From Halomonas sp. (lineage in GTDB: Bacteria; Pseudomonadota; Gammaproteobacteria; Pseudomonadales; Halomonadaceae), in NCBI RefSeq assembly GCF_017515565.1, contig NZ_JAFWFN010000083.1, forward strand, positions 62,001 through 126,000: a stretch of 64,000 nt of DNA, written 5' to 3'. Numbering within the stretch: the stretch's first letter is position 1; each line of letters begins with the position of its first letter. Shown here one piece after another: positions 4,789 to 17,845 of this stretch. Made by a program: the position numbers and the translations under genes. The notes under the pieces are model-generated. The model ran no database searches. It was not told the DNA's origin and worked only from the letters and a program-made list of their open reading frames with translations.

Positions 4789-5655
4789 ATGATACGAGAA
4801 CTGAAAACCCTGGTCGCCGTTGCTCAACACGGCACCTTTGCAGCAGCAGGCCAGCAGGTTGGGCTTACCCAGGCAGCGGTCAGTGCACAAATGAAGCGTT
4901 TAGAAGAAGCGCTTGGACTTACCCTATTTGAACGCAGCGGGCGTGCAGCCGTGCTTACTCAGCGGGGGCAGGAAACCCTGCTGCAGGCGCAAGCGTTGCT
5001 AGGGATGTACGCCACGTTAGGCGATTCGCCATCACATCAGGGGCTTGGTACTCGACTCACCATAGGGGCGATTGCCTCTATTCAACGCACCCTGCTGCCC
5101 GCTGTTTTAGCGCGCTTTCACCGCCGCTACCCTGAGTGTCATACGCGGCTAGTGCCGGGGCTTTCTATAGATTTAATGAATCAGGTAGACGCAGGTGAGC
5201 TGGATATGGCGGTGATTATTCGCCCTCCGTTTTCGCTGCACAGCGATTTACGCTGGACGCCTCTGGCTCACGAGCCGTTTCGCTTACTGGTGCCCCGACA
5301 GCTACAGGGCGAGGAGTGGCGAGAACTTCTCACCAACCACCCCTTCGTGCGCTACGATCGGACATCATTTGGCGGCCGTCAGGTAGATCGCTTTTTAAGG
5401 GATAACCACTGCCAAGTGCGCGATATATGCGAAGTCGATGAGCTAGATGCCATCGTGCAGCTGGTTGCCGATGGCGTGGGCGTCGCGCTTGTCCCTCAAC
5501 CCAACGCATTAAAACGCTGGCCTAAGGGGGTGCGGGCGATTGATTTAGGCGAACGCACCATACACCGCGATATAGGTTTGATTCATCGCACTAACGGGCA
5601 TTTAAGCCAGCCCGCTCGGGCATTGGCCCAATTAATTGGTACTATTGCTGCTTAA
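4789..5655 (+). CDS. LysR-type transcriptional regulator
   Basis: This 288-residue protein has the LysR winged helix-turn-helix at residues 1-60 (LKTLVAVAQHGTFAAAGQQVGLTQ, then SAQMKRLEEALGLTLFERSG) and a LysR substrate-binding domain after about residue 85. The start is uncertain: a TTG at 4777 would add four residues, but the ATG at 4789 places the helix where the family has it. The gene is divergent from the VOC protein gene and may regulate it; no LysR box was verified. Confidence 0.88.
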   Translation: MIRELKTLVAVAQHGTFAAAGQQVGLTQAAVSAQMKRLEEALGLTLFERSGRAAVLTQRGQETLLQAQALLGMYATLGDSPSHQGLGTRLTIGAIASIQRTLLPAVLARFHRRYPECHTRLVPGLSIDLMNQVDAGELDMAVIIRPPFSLHSDLRWTPLAHEPFRLLVPRQLQGEEWRELLTNHPFVRYDRTSFGGRQVDRFLRDNHCQVRDICEVDELDAIVQLVADGVGVALVPQPNALKRWPKGVRAIDLGERTIHRDIGLIHRTNGHLSQPARALAQLIGTIAA

Positions 5656-5702
5656 ACCACTAATGACCTTCATTGACTCAATCAGTACGCAGGCCACCCC
5701 CC

Positions 5703-5915
5703 ATGCAACCTAAAGACCTTGAGAAACTCGTCACCCGGACGATGCCATTTGGAAAGCACCAAGGCTGGATTATTGCCGATCTACCTGGGCCCTATCTCAA
5801 CTGGTTTGCGCGGGAGGGCTTTCCTGACGGTGAGATTGGTCACCTCCTCCACTTGATGCATGAGATTGACCATAACGGCCTCAGCGGCCTGCTTGAACCA
5901 CTGCGCCACAAATAA
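5703..5915 (+). CDS. DUF3820 family small protein
   Basis: A 70-residue protein with the family core TMPFGKHQGWIIADLPGPYLNWFAREGFPDGEIGHLL. Proteins of this family are small and cytosolic, and their function is unknown. The frame opens earlier at a TTG (5673), but the ATG at 5703 starts the recognisable domain. It follows the LysR gene by 47 nt on the same strand, so cotranscription is possible. Confidence 0.75.
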   Translation: MQPKDLEKLVTRTMPFGKHQGWIIADLPGPYLNWFAREGFPDGEIGHLLHLMHEIDHNGLSGLLEPLRHK

Positions 5916-9388: not shown

Positions 9389-9433
9389 TTTGCGTGTTCG
9401 CTTATGTCAGGAAATAGTGCAGTAACAGAGCTA

Positions 9434-10588
9434 TTACTGAGCAATGGTTGACCAATCCACCGGCTCAAAACGACCGTTGCGGATAATCGTCGGCCATACA
9501 GCATCGCTTGCTTGATGATCATTAGGCCCCAAGCTAAGGGCCTCGCCTAACCCTATATCCACGCTGCCCAACCCTAGCAATCCATCGATAATAGCTTCGC
9601 GGCTTGGGTTATTACCCGCCGCTTTTACACCTTCCACCAACAGCTTCGCCGCGAGGTAACCTTCCAGGGAGATAAAATCGGGTTCCGCATCTGGCTGATA
9701 CGTTGATAGTGCTTGACGATATGCTTCAACGGCTGGCAAATCCGCATCCAGGGGCGGGACAACTTGCGTCACAATGACACCTTCAGCCTGGCTACCCAAC
9801 GACGCTAGCAACGCTTGGCTTCCCACAAACGAAACATTAAGAAAGACGGCCGTAGGCAAGTCGCGCTGGGCTTCGCGTATAAAATCCGCCGCTGGGCCAT
9901 GGGTGCCTACAACAATGATCGCCCGGGGAGTAACTGGCGATTGAAGAATACTTGCTAAACCCTGGTGAATATTACGCGTTCCCCGGGTAAACCGGCCATG
10001 GGCCAACCGCGAGGTTTGCGTAAAACCATGCCCTTCAAGCGCTCGGACAGCTCCGTTGTAGCCCGCATCTCCAAAGCTATCGTTTTGCGTGAAGAAGGCG
10101 ATCTCTTCCGGCTGGATGCCCGCTTCAAGCAAGCCATCAATCATGGCAGCAGTTTCTTGTAGATAGCTTGCGCGAAAGTTAATCACATAGCGGTCGGGCG
10201 GTGAGCGGCGTAAGATTCCAGCCCCGGTAAACGCGCCGAATAGCAGTGTTTTATATTCATTATAAATAGGAATAGTAACGGCGGCGGTAGGCGTTCCAAC
10301 ATTACCAATGGCCGCAAGTATGCGCTCGTTGCCAACCAGTTGTCGGGTATGCTCGGCGGCTTGCAGGGGGTGGTATTGATCATCAAGTACCGTGAGCGTC
10401 AGCTGCTTGCCATTAACGCCACCGGATGCATTCACCTCAGAAAAGTAGGCCTCTATACCCTCCTGCATCCCTATACCCAGGGGCGCCGCGCCGCCACTGG
10501 CGGGTGCTACAATACCAAAGGTTAACTCTGCTTGAGCTAACGGAGAAAAGAGCATTCCCGCCAGTAACCATATACTTATTCGCCGCAT
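9434..10588 (-). CDS. Periplasmic branched-chain amino-acid-type substrate-binding protein
   Basis: A 384-residue type I periplasmic binding protein (LivJ-like/ANF-receptor fold) with a cleavable signal peptide (MRRISIWLLAGMLFSPLAQA, cut after residue 20). Fold markers include FGIVAPASGGAAPLGIGMQEG, ASGGVNGKQLTLTVLDDQYHP and FFTQNDSFGDAGYNGAVRAL. No permease or ATPase genes lie next to it, so it is an orphan with respect to transport. It is the first gene of an apparent two-gene unit with the chemoreceptor. Its likely job is ligand capture for chemotaxis; the ligand is unknown. Confidence 0.9.
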   Translation of the reverse strand: MRRISIWLLAGMLFSPLAQAELTFGIVAPASGGAAPLGIGMQEGIEAYFSEVNASGGVNGKQLTLTVLDDQYHPLQAAEHTRQLVGNERILAAIGNVGTPTAAVTIPIYNEYKTLLFGAFTGAGILRRSPPDRYVINFRASYLQETAAMIDGLLEAGIQPEEIAFFTQNDSFGDAGYNGAVRALEGHGFTQTSRLAHGRFTRGTRNIHQGLASILQSPVTPRAIIVVGTHGPAADFIREAQRDLPTAVFLNVSFVGSQALLASLGSQAEGVIVTQVVPPLDADLPAVEAYRQALSTYQPDAEPDFISLEGYLAAKLLVEGVKAAGNNPSREAIIDGLLGLGSVDIGLGEALSLGPNDHQASDAVWPTIIRNGRFEPVDWSTIAQ

Positions 10589-14589: not shown

Positions 14590-15558
14590 CTAAAACCAGT
14601 TTTTACGTTTGAAAAGCCAAATCAAACTCCCCCCAATCCCCACCATGGCACCCCATACAAAGAAGTAGCCGTACTGAAAACCCAGCTCGGGCATATATTC
14701 AAAGTTCATTCCGTAGATACCGGCAATAAACGTAAGCGGTACAAAAATGGCCGTAATTACCGTCAATACACGCATCGTAATATTAAGCTGATGCGACGAA
14801 ATCGAAATGTAGCCATTCACTAAATCGCCGCAGATGTCGTAATACATCTGAGTGAGGGTATAAAGGCGTTCAAAACGCTCGGCCACATCATTGATCGCGT
14901 AGAGGGTTTCATTCTCATCTCGCGGCAGATGCGCATAGTCGTAGGCGATCAGCTCCTGAGTAATACCCTTGTGATAACTAAAAATACGGCGCAGCTTCAC
15001 TAATCGTGAACGGTAGGTGGTTAGTTTGCGCATTAAAACGTCGTTACCGCTCTCCAGCAGCTCATCCTCTAAATCGCTTAGTTCACTCTCAAATTCAAGC
15101 AGGCTATCAATGTAAAAACCTGCAGAGGTATACATCACTCTGAGTGCAACGCGCTCGGGTGATTGCGCTAGCAACGTGCTCCCCTGTTCGTTGAAAAACC
15201 GATCAACACTAAGCGCTTCGCCTGGATGCAGAGTAATCAAGAAGCGTTCACCAATAAAAAAACAGACCTGCTGAGGCACAAAGTTGAGCTGCGCATCAAA
15301 GGAGGAAATACCACGGTAGATAATCAGCGTATGGTGTTCAAACTCTTCAATTTTAGGTGGATGCCGCTCTTTTTGAGCATCTTGGATCGCCATAGGATGG
15401 CACTCTAAACGCTCAAGTAGACCCTGCTCTCGCTGACCTGGCTCAGCTTGCATGTCTATCCAGATATGACTCCCCGGGGTTGCCTGCCACTGCTCAATTA
15501 AGTCTTCATCGCCTTCATGCACTAGCCCGTCAGGGGTGGTGAGCATACTGCGGATCAT
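14590..15558 (-). CDS. CorA-family divalent cation transporter
   Basis: A 322-residue protein with a long cytoplasmic alpha/beta funnel domain and two C-terminal membrane helices. The signature GMN selectivity motif is intact (G283-M284-N285 in IYGMNFEYMPE). The protein ends with a basic KRKNWF tail typical of CorA channels. It probably imports Mg2+ (possibly Co2+ or Ni2+). It lies 24 nt downstream of the GGDEF gene on the same strand and may be cotranscribed with it, which would also place it under the TPP riboswitch at 17104-17195. Confidence 0.92.
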   Translation of the reverse strand: MIRSMLTTPDGLVHEGDEDLIEQWQATPGSHIWIDMQAEPGQREQGLLERLECHPMAIQDAQKERHPPKIEEFEHHTLIIYRGISSFDAQLNFVPQQVCFFIGERFLITLHPGEALSVDRFFNEQGSTLLAQSPERVALRVMYTSAGFYIDSLLEFESELSDLEDELLESGNDVLMRKLTTYRSRLVKLRRIFSYHKGITQELIAYDYAHLPRDENETLYAINDVAERFERLYTLTQMYYDICGDLVNGYISISSHQLNITMRVLTVITAIFVPLTFIAGIYGMNFEYMPELGFQYGYFFVWGAMVGIGGSLIWLFKRKNWF

Positions 15559-15582: not shown

Positions 15583-17010
15583 CTAAATATCAGGTGAGAT
15601 ATCAACTGGCTGGGCTAAGTGTAGCCGCCCTTTTCCTGCACGTTTGGCTTCATACATCGCGACATCTGCACGCTTGAGCAGCTCTTTTGCCGTCTCGGCG
15701 GCTTCCGGCCCAAACAGCGCTACACCAATGCTGGTGCTAACGTTAAGCGTGACTCCAGCCACTGTCAGCGGCTGCTCAATAGTACGTATCAATTTGTTCG
15801 TAAAGGTCACCAGGGCCTCGCTGGCGATCCCTTCTAGCAACAACACAAACTCATCACCAGCCCAGCGCGCCACAAAGTCTGTTTCGCGCACCGATTGTTG
15901 CAACCTAAGCGCGATATCACGCAGCAGCTCATCACCCATAGCGTGCCCGTAACGGTCATTTACCCCTTTAAAGCCATCTAAATCCATAAACAGCACGGCC
16001 AGCGGTTTGCGCGTGCGGCGCACCCTTGCCATGGCTTCTGGAAGCCGCTCATCTAGCGCGCGCCGATTGGGTAACGCGGTTAGCGCATCTTCCCGGGCTT
16101 CCTGGTTGCGCAAACGCTCTAACTGCTGGCGCTCGGTAATATCATGAATGAACAAGCTGCGTCGCTCACGGCCATTCACTGCATAGCTTTTTAGGCGGAT
16201 TTCCACAGGAAGCCATCCGCCATCCCGTCGCTTGGCTTTTCCCGTAATGGGAGATGAGGACGCCTGGGGCAGCCCTTCAGGAAACATCAGGGAGGTGACA
16301 GTACGCGCCAGCGCCTCTTTACGCTGCCAGCCAAACATCACTTCAGCCGCGTGATTCCAATCCAGAACACGGCCGATTTCATCAATACTTAGGTAGGCGT
16401 CGTAGGCTGTTTCAATCACCAGACTAAGCTCTCTGGTTCGTTGCTCTATCTGCTGCTCAAGGCTTAGATGCAGTGCCTTTAACGCGCGCTGCGAGACTTC
16501 TTTACTTTTTTTCTCGGCAATCAGCCGTTCACGCAGTTGGATTTCCCCTGTAACAATATCGGCAAGGTCTTGCATCGCTGCCTGCTCTGTCGCACTTAAG
16601 GAGCGCGGTTTGGTGTCCATGGCGCAAAGCGAACCTAATACATAACCTTGGGTAGTTTTAAGAGGAATTCCCACATAAAAGCGCAAGCCATCCGGCTGGG
16701 TCACAAAAGGGTTATTGGCAAAACGTGCGTCTAACCGAGCATCGTTCACCACTAGCGGCGCGGCCTGCACCACGGTGTAAGCGCAAAAAGCCACATCCCG
16801 CGATGTTTCCTGGATATCTAAGCCTATCTGGGATTTAAACCATTGCCGGTTAGCGTCCACTAACGTTACTGTTGCGATAGGCACGTTTAGTAGATGGGTC
16901 ACTAAACGAGTAATTCGATCAAACACCGGCTCATTGGGCGTATCTAGCAGCGCCAGCTCTTGCAGCGCTGCTAGACGGGCATCTTCATCGAACGGTAGTG
17001 GATAGCTCAT
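15583..17010 (-). CDS. GAF-PAS-GGDEF diguanylate cyclase, downstream of a TPP riboswitch
   Basis: A 475-residue cytosolic signalling protein. The GAF domain (about 20-155) has the pattern DRITRLVTHLLNVPIATVTL. A short coiled coil leads to a PAS domain (about 195-300, AYDAYLSIDEIGRVLDWNHA). The GGDEF domain covers about 310-465, with the active-site loop reading AGDEF (in RWAGDEFVLLLE), a variant usually still active, so cyclic-di-GMP synthesis is likely. I prefer the ATG at 17010 over the one at 17025 because homologues begin MSYP. The 5' leader holds a TPP riboswitch and a 12-codon ORF. The corA-like gene follows by 24 nt. Confidence 0.92.
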   Translation of the reverse strand: MSYPLPFDEDARLAALQELALLDTPNEPVFDRITRLVTHLLNVPIATVTLVDANRQWFKSQIGLDIQETSRDVAFCAYTVVQAAPLVVNDARLDARFANNPFVTQPDGLRFYVGIPLKTTQGYVLGSLCAMDTKPRSLSATEQAAMQDLADIVTGEIQLRERLIAEKKSKEVSQRALKALHLSLEQQIEQRTRELSLVIETAYDAYLSIDEIGRVLDWNHAAEVMFGWQRKEALARTVTSLMFPEGLPQASSSPITGKAKRRDGGWLPVEIRLKSYAVNGRERRSLFIHDITERQQLERLRNQEAREDALTALPNRRALDERLPEAMARVRRTRKPLAVLFMDLDGFKGVNDRYGHAMGDELLRDIALRLQQSVRETDFVARWAGDEFVLLLEGIASEALVTFTNKLIRTIEQPLTVAGVTLNVSTSIGVALFGPEAAETAKELLKRADVAMYEAKRAGKGRLHLAQPVDISPDI

Positions 17011-17065
17011 CGCTGTAGCACCCATTCGGGGAAAGGCAATACGACACCATAACGCGAAACAGCGT

Positions 17066-17104
17066 TTACTGCTTAGCTCTCTGGCTACTCGTTAGACAAG
17101 GCAT
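17066..17104 (-). CDS. Possible 12-residue leader ORF at the riboswitch 3' edge
   Basis: An ATG at 17104 sits exactly at the 3' end of the TPP aptamer and is preceded by GGAGGAA with ideal 7-nt spacing. The frame reads MPCLTSSQRAKQ and then TAA. Because the Shine-Dalgarno lies inside the conserved aptamer core, translation would be blocked when TPP is bound. It may be a true leader peptide, or the surviving 5' end of a lost thiamine gene. Confidence 0.35.
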   Translation of the reverse strand: MPCLTSSQRAKQ

Positions 17105-17195
17105 GTCGCACTTCCTCCGCCGGTATGATCCGGATCAGGTTCCAGGGTCTGCCTATGGCATTCTCAGTCCTTCAATAAGGACTCCCCTGGCGACA
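17104..17195 (-). promoter_or_regulatory. TPP (THI-element) riboswitch
   Basis: Read on the minus strand, the element shows all main TPP-aptamer landmarks in order: closing P1 TGTCGC...GCGACA, CAGGGGAGTCC, GGACTGAGAATGCC, ACCCTGGAACCTGATCCGGA, and the 3' core ACCGGCGGAGGAAG. The CTGAGA and CCTGATC boxes form the pyrimidine-binding and pyrophosphate-binding sites in known TPP aptamers. It faces the GAF-PAS-GGDEF gene, whose start lies about 80-95 nt downstream. No thi gene is present in the window. A 3'-edge GGAGG suggests control at translation initiation. Confidence 0.93.
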
Positions 17196-17242
17196 AATTC
17201 ATGAAGGCACCATCCTCGGCTAAATCAGCGACTTAGTAAACC

Positions 17243-17845
17243 CTAAGAGGCAGCAGAAACATTGCTCCGAGGAGCACGGCCCATGGCATAAAACTCGGGG
17301 TTAGGCGGTGTCCCTGCTAATGTGACCAGCCGATTGGACATGCTAAAAAAGGCGGCAATAGCGCCGATGTCCCAGCAGTCGTCAAGGGTGAAACCGACAT
17401 TCGCTAAGCGCTCCTGCCAAGCTAACGAGAACTCTCCTAACTCAATGGAACTGTACAGGGCAAAATCGAGCATCAAACGGTGGCGTTCACTTAGATCGGC
17501 CACGTGATGATTAATCGCCACGTTATCTGCAAGTAGAGGATCTTTACTATAAATACGCACTAAGGCACCGTGAGCCACCACACAATACAGGCAGCGGTTT
17601 CGAGCGCTAGTGGCTACCACAATCATCTCTTTTTCGGTTTTTGTGAGCGTATCCGATGCCCGTTCCATTAACGCATCGTGATAGGCGAAGAAAGCGCGAA
17701 ACTCATCCGGCCGATGGGCAAGCATTAAGAATACATTCGGCACAAACCCTGCCTTTTCCTGCACGTCTAAAATTGAACTGCGAATATCCTCGGGCAGCTC
17801 ATCGAGGGATTCTGGTACGGCAAAGCGACTTATTGAATCAGGCAT
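17243..17845 (-). CDS. Peroxidase-related (AhpD/carboxymuconolactone decarboxylase-like) protein
   Basis: A 200-residue AhpD-fold protein. The catalytic motif is CLYCVVAHG, giving the CxxC...H arrangement used for thiol-based peroxide reduction, and the preceding segment GFVPNVFLMLAHRPDEFRAF is typical of the uncharacterised peroxidase-related subfamily. The upstream extension of the frame lacks homology; the ATG at 17845 has an AAAGGTGAG site and begins the domain. The gene precedes the TPP riboswitch on the same strand. Its substrate and electron donor are unknown. Confidence 0.87.
   Translation of the reverse strand: MPDSISRFAVPESLDELPEDIRSSILDVQEKAGFVPNVFLMLAHRPDEFRAFFAYHDALMERASDTLTKTEKEMIVVATSARNRCLYCVVAHGALVRIYSKDPLLADNVAINHHVADLSERHRLMLDFALYSSIELGEFSLAWQERLANVGFTLDDCWDIGAIAAFFSMSNRLVTLAGTPPNPEFYAMGRAPRSNVSAAS

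Follow-up and report, generated by a model that had tools for sequence, protein, structure and literature searches.

Does a TPP riboswitch that stands directly in front of a diguanylate cyclase gene control this gene, or is it left over from another gene that it once served? This question is raised by a minus-strand element in the stretch of DNA analysed here (64,000 nucleotides, hereafter the window). A first-pass annotation had called the element a TPP riboswitch and had proposed a covariance search as the check. The search shows that the call is real: the model RF00059 (TPP riboswitch, THI element) is matched from end to end (model positions 1-105) by 17094-17198 of the minus strand, with 69.3 bits against a gathering threshold of 54.3 (E 1.4e-12 with 6 kb searched, and E 1.5e-11 with the whole 64-kb window searched). 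RF00059 is the sole Rfam family at gathering threshold in the 64-kb window. The paired core of the aptamer extends from U17195 to A17104, and the limits proposed beforehand, 17104-17195, are exact to the base for this part. The element resembles known TPP riboswitches in its full-length match above the gathering threshold and in its intact conserved core. Judged from its sequence, it is a genuine TPP riboswitch with an intact sensing part.

The riboswitch faces a GAF-PAS-GGDEF diguanylate cyclase gene (15583-17010, minus strand), which is followed by a CorA-type Mg2+ transporter gene (14590-15558, minus strand). Both had been named in the first-pass annotation, and the assignment is borne out by the gene order and by the Pfam matches (GGDEF with 165.7 bits, together with GAF and PAS, and CorA with 219.7 bits); the NCBIfam corA match of 195.2 bits is slightly below its cut-off of 200.75. 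The conserved start of the cyclase is the ATG at 17010, and an in-frame alternative ATG is located at 17025. The catalytic region of the cyclase, RETDFVARWAGDEF, contains the AGDEF signature and the RxxD site, a motif found in 47/47 orthologues examined, and the gene looks intact. RF00059 usually precedes a thiamine synthesis or transport gene, which is not required for membership of the aptamer family. Such a target is absent here, as the GGDEF gene comes next and a gene of the sodium:solute symporter (SSF) family has been deleted. The earlier statement that the window holds no thi gene stands for the genes beside the switch, which is the scope of the family searches. Unlike the usual TPP riboswitch, the one in the window no longer has a transport gene downstream, and the first open reading frame behind it is a 12-codon remnant.

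The origin of this arrangement becomes visible in the relatives. We searched 82 genomes of the genus, among them the window's genome (G000) and its sister (G001), and found the GGDEF orthologue (E <= 1e-150) in 47 of them, including the window's. At these 47 loci the switch, the SSF gene, the cyclase, corA and an upstream AhpD-like gene were mapped. The switch, an SSF gene of about 459 codons (SSF-1) and the cyclase occur together in 41/47, with SSF-1 located between switch and cyclase. Switch and cyclase are directly adjacent in only two genomes (2/47), G000 and G001, and the remaining four (4/47; G004, G021, G026 and G081) have the cyclase with neither the switch nor SSF-1. The aptamer landmark lies 120 nt from the cyclase ATG in both G000 and G001, and 1459-1502 nt from it in the 41 loci with the full arrangement. 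In a maximum-likelihood tree of GGDEF and CorA, built from 46 of the 47 genomes (G071 was left out, as its stretch gave no corA match), G000 and G001 (100/100) are sister to G004 and G021 (100/100), and the four are nested among full arrangements. This nesting indicates that the order switch-SSF gene-cyclase-corA is ancestral here and that the arrangement in the window is derived. A dedicated TPP-cyclase switch shared across the genus was rejected, since the switch adjoins the cyclase in just 2/47. For the first-pass annotation, a thi gene between switch and cyclase in related genomes would have spoken against control of the cyclase; such a gene is present in 41/47 if the SSF gene encodes a thiamin-compound transporter.

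Beyond the loci with a full cyclase gene, the association of switch and transporter is widespread. The SSF gene stays behind the switch in 61 orthologous loci, one of them with a broken gene (G074). In fifteen further loci the order is switch-SSF-1-corA and a full GGDEF gene is missing; one of these (G063) carries a GGDEF remnant, and a sixteenth such locus, in G073, carries a larger GGDEF fragment. Both remnants (G063, L201; G073, L200) lie between SSF-1 and corA, which suggests that the cyclase was lost separately in the two genomes. GGDEF sequence is lacking between switch-SSF-1 and corA in G006, G008, G010, G011, G012, G030, G058, G076, G077, G078, G079, G083, G089 and G101. In 10 of these 14 loci, SSF-1 is 34 nt or less from corA or overlaps it, and the TPP-switched transporter gene thus adjoins a Mg2+ channel gene. 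Decay of the switched gene is also seen elsewhere: SSF-1 is broken in G074 (L191) with the switch still in front of it, and is in pieces in G098.

Compared with intact relatives, G000 and G001 lack about 1.36 kb, comprising almost the whole SSF gene. The intact gene begins, for example, with ATGCCTTACCTAACG, whereas the junction joins ATGCCTTGTCTAACG to AGTAGCCAGAGAGCTAAGCAGTAA in G000 and ATGGCTTACCTAACG to AGTAGCCAGAGAGCCAAGCAGTGA in G001. The corresponding join in G004 and G021, which reads TAACGAGTAATCAAGG, aligns with the post-junction sequence of G000 and G001. The pentamer TAACG at the junction (17090-17094, minus strand) is found both at the 5' end of the transporter gene in relatives and at the G004/G021 join, and its presence on both sides suggests a deletion between short repeats. 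Comparison with intact orthologues further identifies the 12-codon remnant open reading frame, MPCLTSSQRAKQ followed by a stop codon (17066-17104, minus strand). It consists of the start and codons 1-5 of the SSF gene fused to sequence from the 3' end of the gene, and 55 nt separate its end from the cyclase ATG. An in-frame deletion that kept the transporter's own stop codon was considered and dropped: the post-junction sequence aligns with the 3' end of the transporter gene and the intergenic region in G072, G004 and G021, which makes the stop of the 12-codon frame fortuitous. Taken together, the comparison shows that one deletion, shared by G000 and G001 through their ancestor, removed the transporter gene.

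The lost protein, as seen in relatives, is a distant match to the SSF family. SSF-1 matches TIGR00813 with E 1.7e-13 and a score of 50.5 versus a cut-off of 184, and Pfam SSF with 22.1 versus 22.8; a search of the PDB sequences gave no match at E 0.01. Its TPP switch and its mutual exclusion with a second SSF gene (SSF-2) suggest that SSF-1 is a putative thiamin-compound transporter similar to ThiV. According to two reports, thiV, which encodes an SSF-family HMP/thiamin transporter in SAR11 and other bacteria, lies under TPP switches (PMC11452348, PMC2211319), and the intact relatives show the same combination of a TPP switch and a sodium:solute symporter gene. They differ from thiV in that their protein is a distant SSF match, likened to ThiV by family and switch, and in that the gene is deleted in the window. 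SSF-2 is 36.8% identical to SSF-1 over residues 21-402. SSF-1 occurs in 64/82 genomes, in two of them broken (G074, G098), and SSF-2 in 11/82, the SSF-2 search having given 13 matches, of which two were SSF-1 itself at 38% and were excluded. No genome has both and seven have neither, and this mutual exclusion has a Fisher P of 2e-9 with the genomes taken as independent, that is, with their kinship ignored. All four genomes G000, G001, G004 and G021 possess SSF-2. Replacement of SSF-1 by SSF-2 is the simplest account for the clade of the window, although it does not explain every loss, since G026 and G081 have neither of the two genes.

The window's genome contains five TPP switches in all. The other four are located on other contigs and precede thiM-thiE, tenA-thiC, SSF-2, and a pair formed by an SDR gene and an FMN-dependent monooxygenase gene. 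Two of them lie convergently on one contig (C38, L059), at 5611-5722 on the plus strand and 9422-9522 on the minus strand; one stands before SSF-2 and the other before the SDR gene and the monooxygenase gene, which is of the NtaA/DmoA type. This TPP-switched oxidoreductase pair may represent an undescribed step of thiamin salvage or degradation.

The anatomy of the element suggests how the ancestral switch would have acted. The ribosome-binding site of the lost transporter gene, GGAGG (17114-17118, minus strand; assigned from the sequence and from a fold with the aptamer structure enforced), lies within the conserved aptamer core at 17118-17114, and its AGG pairs with CCU in P4 of the formed aptamer. 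In intact loci the ATG of the SSF gene directly follows GCGAC, and its A is the last base of P1. Because GGAGG forms the 3' strand of P4 and the start codon begins in P1, TPP binding would hide both the ribosome-binding site and the start codon. The ancestral switch would thus have served the SSF-type (ThiV-like) gene as a translational off-switch. In the free fold GGAGG is mostly paired as well, and folding alone therefore does not show switching.

Upstream of the aptamer, a promoter-like site for the switch transcript is found at 17212-17240 on the minus strand, composed of a -35 hexamer TTTACT (17240-17235), a 17-nt spacer and a -10 hexamer GAGGAT (17217-17212). Hexamers of the TTTACT/GAGGAT type, set exactly 17 nt apart, are found in 33/63 switch loci versus a background of 0.003 per 85 nt; the pattern was composed after the loci had been inspected, and 30/63 loci do not fit it. 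The site is retained in both G000 and G001, and we infer that it has promoter activity. The bases just before P1 (17197-17196) differ from those of the relatives: ACTGTCGCC runs into P1 in 59/61 SSF-1-bearing loci, the flank is TTTGTCGCC in G000 and TATGTCGCC in G001, and the conserved flank is lost in both transporter-less genomes.

A second promoter-like block lies downstream of the switch, in front of the cyclase (17046-17075, minus strand), and consists of TAAGCA (17075-17070), 18 nt, and TATGGT (17051-17046). The TATG-type hexamer, C(G/T)nTA(T/G)GnT, is present upstream of the cyclase in 47/47 GGDEF-bearing genomes, including the four without a switch, and a second hexamer ending in GCA lies exactly 18 nt upstream of it in 45/47. 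A stricter pattern of the block occurs in 44/47, at 39-43 nt from the ATG (at 63 in two genomes), versus a background of 0.003 per 90 nt. Among the 15 switch-SSF-1-corA loci without a full GGDEF gene it is found in one, namely the one that has a GGDEF remnant. These patterns were likewise composed after inspection of the loci. From the conservation of the block in 47/47 we infer that the cyclase has a promoter of its own downstream of the switch, and if the block is a promoter, a cyclase mRNA starting near 17039 would never contain the switch. A consensus promoter scan of 16900-17400 gave no promoter, at neither the switch site nor the cyclase site, and both promoter-like sites thus rest on conservation and not on a consensus score. 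In addition, a scan between switch and cyclase gave no terminator-like site, which makes readthrough from the switch into the cyclase possible. A structure that hides the ribosome-binding site of the cyclase in one state only was considered and rejected, as this site is mostly paired in both folds. The fold energies are -77.4 kcal/mol for the free fold and -77.1 kcal/mol with the aptamer enforced, and there is no state-dependent change at the ribosome-binding site of the cyclase.

These observations are probably best accounted for by an orphaned TPP switch that is mostly a relic of the replacement of the transporter, with the cyclase mainly on its own promoter downstream. The deletion of about 1.36 kb took place in the ancestor of G000 and G001. 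This lineage could probably afford it, having already acquired a second SSF gene under a TPP switch, SSF-2, as the mutual exclusion of the two genes suggests. The deletion left a promoter-like site, the switch and the 12-codon frame upstream of the cyclase, and in the window a translational block could act only on this 12-codon remnant. Judging by the conservation of its block, the main source of cyclase expression is most likely a promoter of its own that lies downstream of the switch, in which case TPP would hardly influence the gene, if at all, except through readthrough. Decay of the orphaned switch is already visible in G001, and the sister pair G004/G021 has lost it altogether. The first-pass annotation had offered two readings: that of an orphan left by gene loss fits best, whereas control of the cyclase by TPP is disfavoured by the SSF gene standing between the two in 41/47 and by the promoter-like block that belongs to the cyclase.

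How the aptamer itself has evolved bears on whether the switch keeps any role. As near-invariant we took the 61 core columns with an identity of at least 97% across the 61 SSF-1-bearing loci. G000 breaks 0/61 of these positions and G001 breaks 3/61; of the 61 SSF-1-bearing loci, 59 are free of breaks and two have a single one, and G001 thus exceeds them all. When the cut-off is relaxed to 85-95% (67-70 columns), the breaks number two in G000 and six to eight in G001. Both changes of G000 also occur in G001 and concern the two partners of one P2 base pair, replacing C-G by U-A. The changes of the G001 aptamer include one that unpairs P1. Seven of the differences between the two aptamer cores can be assigned to the branch of G001 and none to that of G000, and three are ambiguous. 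Derived sites on the G000 branch versus the G001 branch number 65 versus 38 in the GGDEF gene and 25 versus 26 in corA; by these counts the branch of G000 is not a short one. The third-position rate on the G000 branch (57/655) predicts 5.3 breaks in 61 columns, and the observed zero has P 0.004 at this rate and P 0.066 at half of it; the three breaks of G001 match a neutral expectation of 3.4. With zero breaks in G000 and a neutral-like number in G001, the aptamer looks preserved in the lineage of the window and released in its sister. No other finding argues as strongly that the switch still has some role, but the argument comes from one branch and from an unplanned comparison.

One such role would be exaptation, in which the intact switch was recruited to the cyclase in the lineage of the window after the transporter was deleted, so that TPP tunes c-di-GMP. 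TPP would block translation of the 12-codon frame, the reduced ribosome traffic or Rho-dependent termination would lower cyclase expression, and low TPP would raise c-di-GMP synthesis. The aptamer has stayed intact since the split of G000 and G001, the promoter-like site, the ribosome-binding site and the start codon are all kept, and no terminator-like site intervenes before the cyclase ATG, 55 nt behind the stop of the short frame. We nevertheless regard this route as improbable. A separation of 55 nt is long for translational coupling, the cyclase's promoter-like block stands between switch and gene in 47/47, the same junction in G001 carries a decaying aptamer, the fold lacks a switch-dependent change at the ribosome-binding site of the cyclase, and the constraint argument concerns a single branch. 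A stand-alone role, in which the retained switch makes a short RNA or leader without a downstream target of its own, would account for a promoter-like site and an intact aptamer ahead of a 12-codon frame. It is very improbable, as no terminator-like site follows the switch and nothing else favours a function in trans.

Control at the level of the ancestral operon is a further possibility, an unlikely one, and is compatible with reading the switch as a relic. The 41 genomes with the full arrangement would co-transcribe the cyclase and corA with the TPP-repressed transporter, polarity would modulate part of the cyclase expression, and the window would show a remnant of this operon. The order is kept in 41/47, the stop of the transporter lies 44-86 nt from the cyclase ATG in 40 genomes (G074, with its broken transporter, being left out), and the gap from transporter to corA is at most 108 nt in 14/15 loci without the GGDEF gene. 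Against this, the cyclase has its own promoter-like block, adjacency alone is no proof of co-transcription, and the switch would act on the translation of the first gene and not on the transcript.

Taking the switch to be an orphaned relic, we find a parallel in print. According to one report, a yybP-ykoY riboswitch of Bordetella pertussis stands before a non-functional exporter gene, BP3410 (PMC8546581). As described there, that riboswitch likewise outlives the function of the gene it served; the broken gene is still in place there, whereas here the gene is deleted and an unrelated one has been brought next to the switch. TPP and c-di-GMP have already been linked physiologically: a study on Edwardsiella piscicida reports that TPP starvation lowers c-di-GMP (PMC9026889). 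Among titles and the beginnings of abstracts, with few subscription papers covered, no paper was found on a TPP switch acting on a cyclase gene.

Our analysis outlines a route by which a riboswitch may come to face an unrelated gene: the transporter it regulates is replaced, the transporter gene is deleted between short repeats, and the switch persists. The case also cautions that regulons can be misread from adjacency in one genome. The species of the window, its sister G001 and the switchless G004 and G021 together would provide a natural experiment on a recruited versus a decaying orphan switch. If exaptation were true, the window would hold a newly formed riboswitch regulon near its origin, with the same junction decaying in the sister species.
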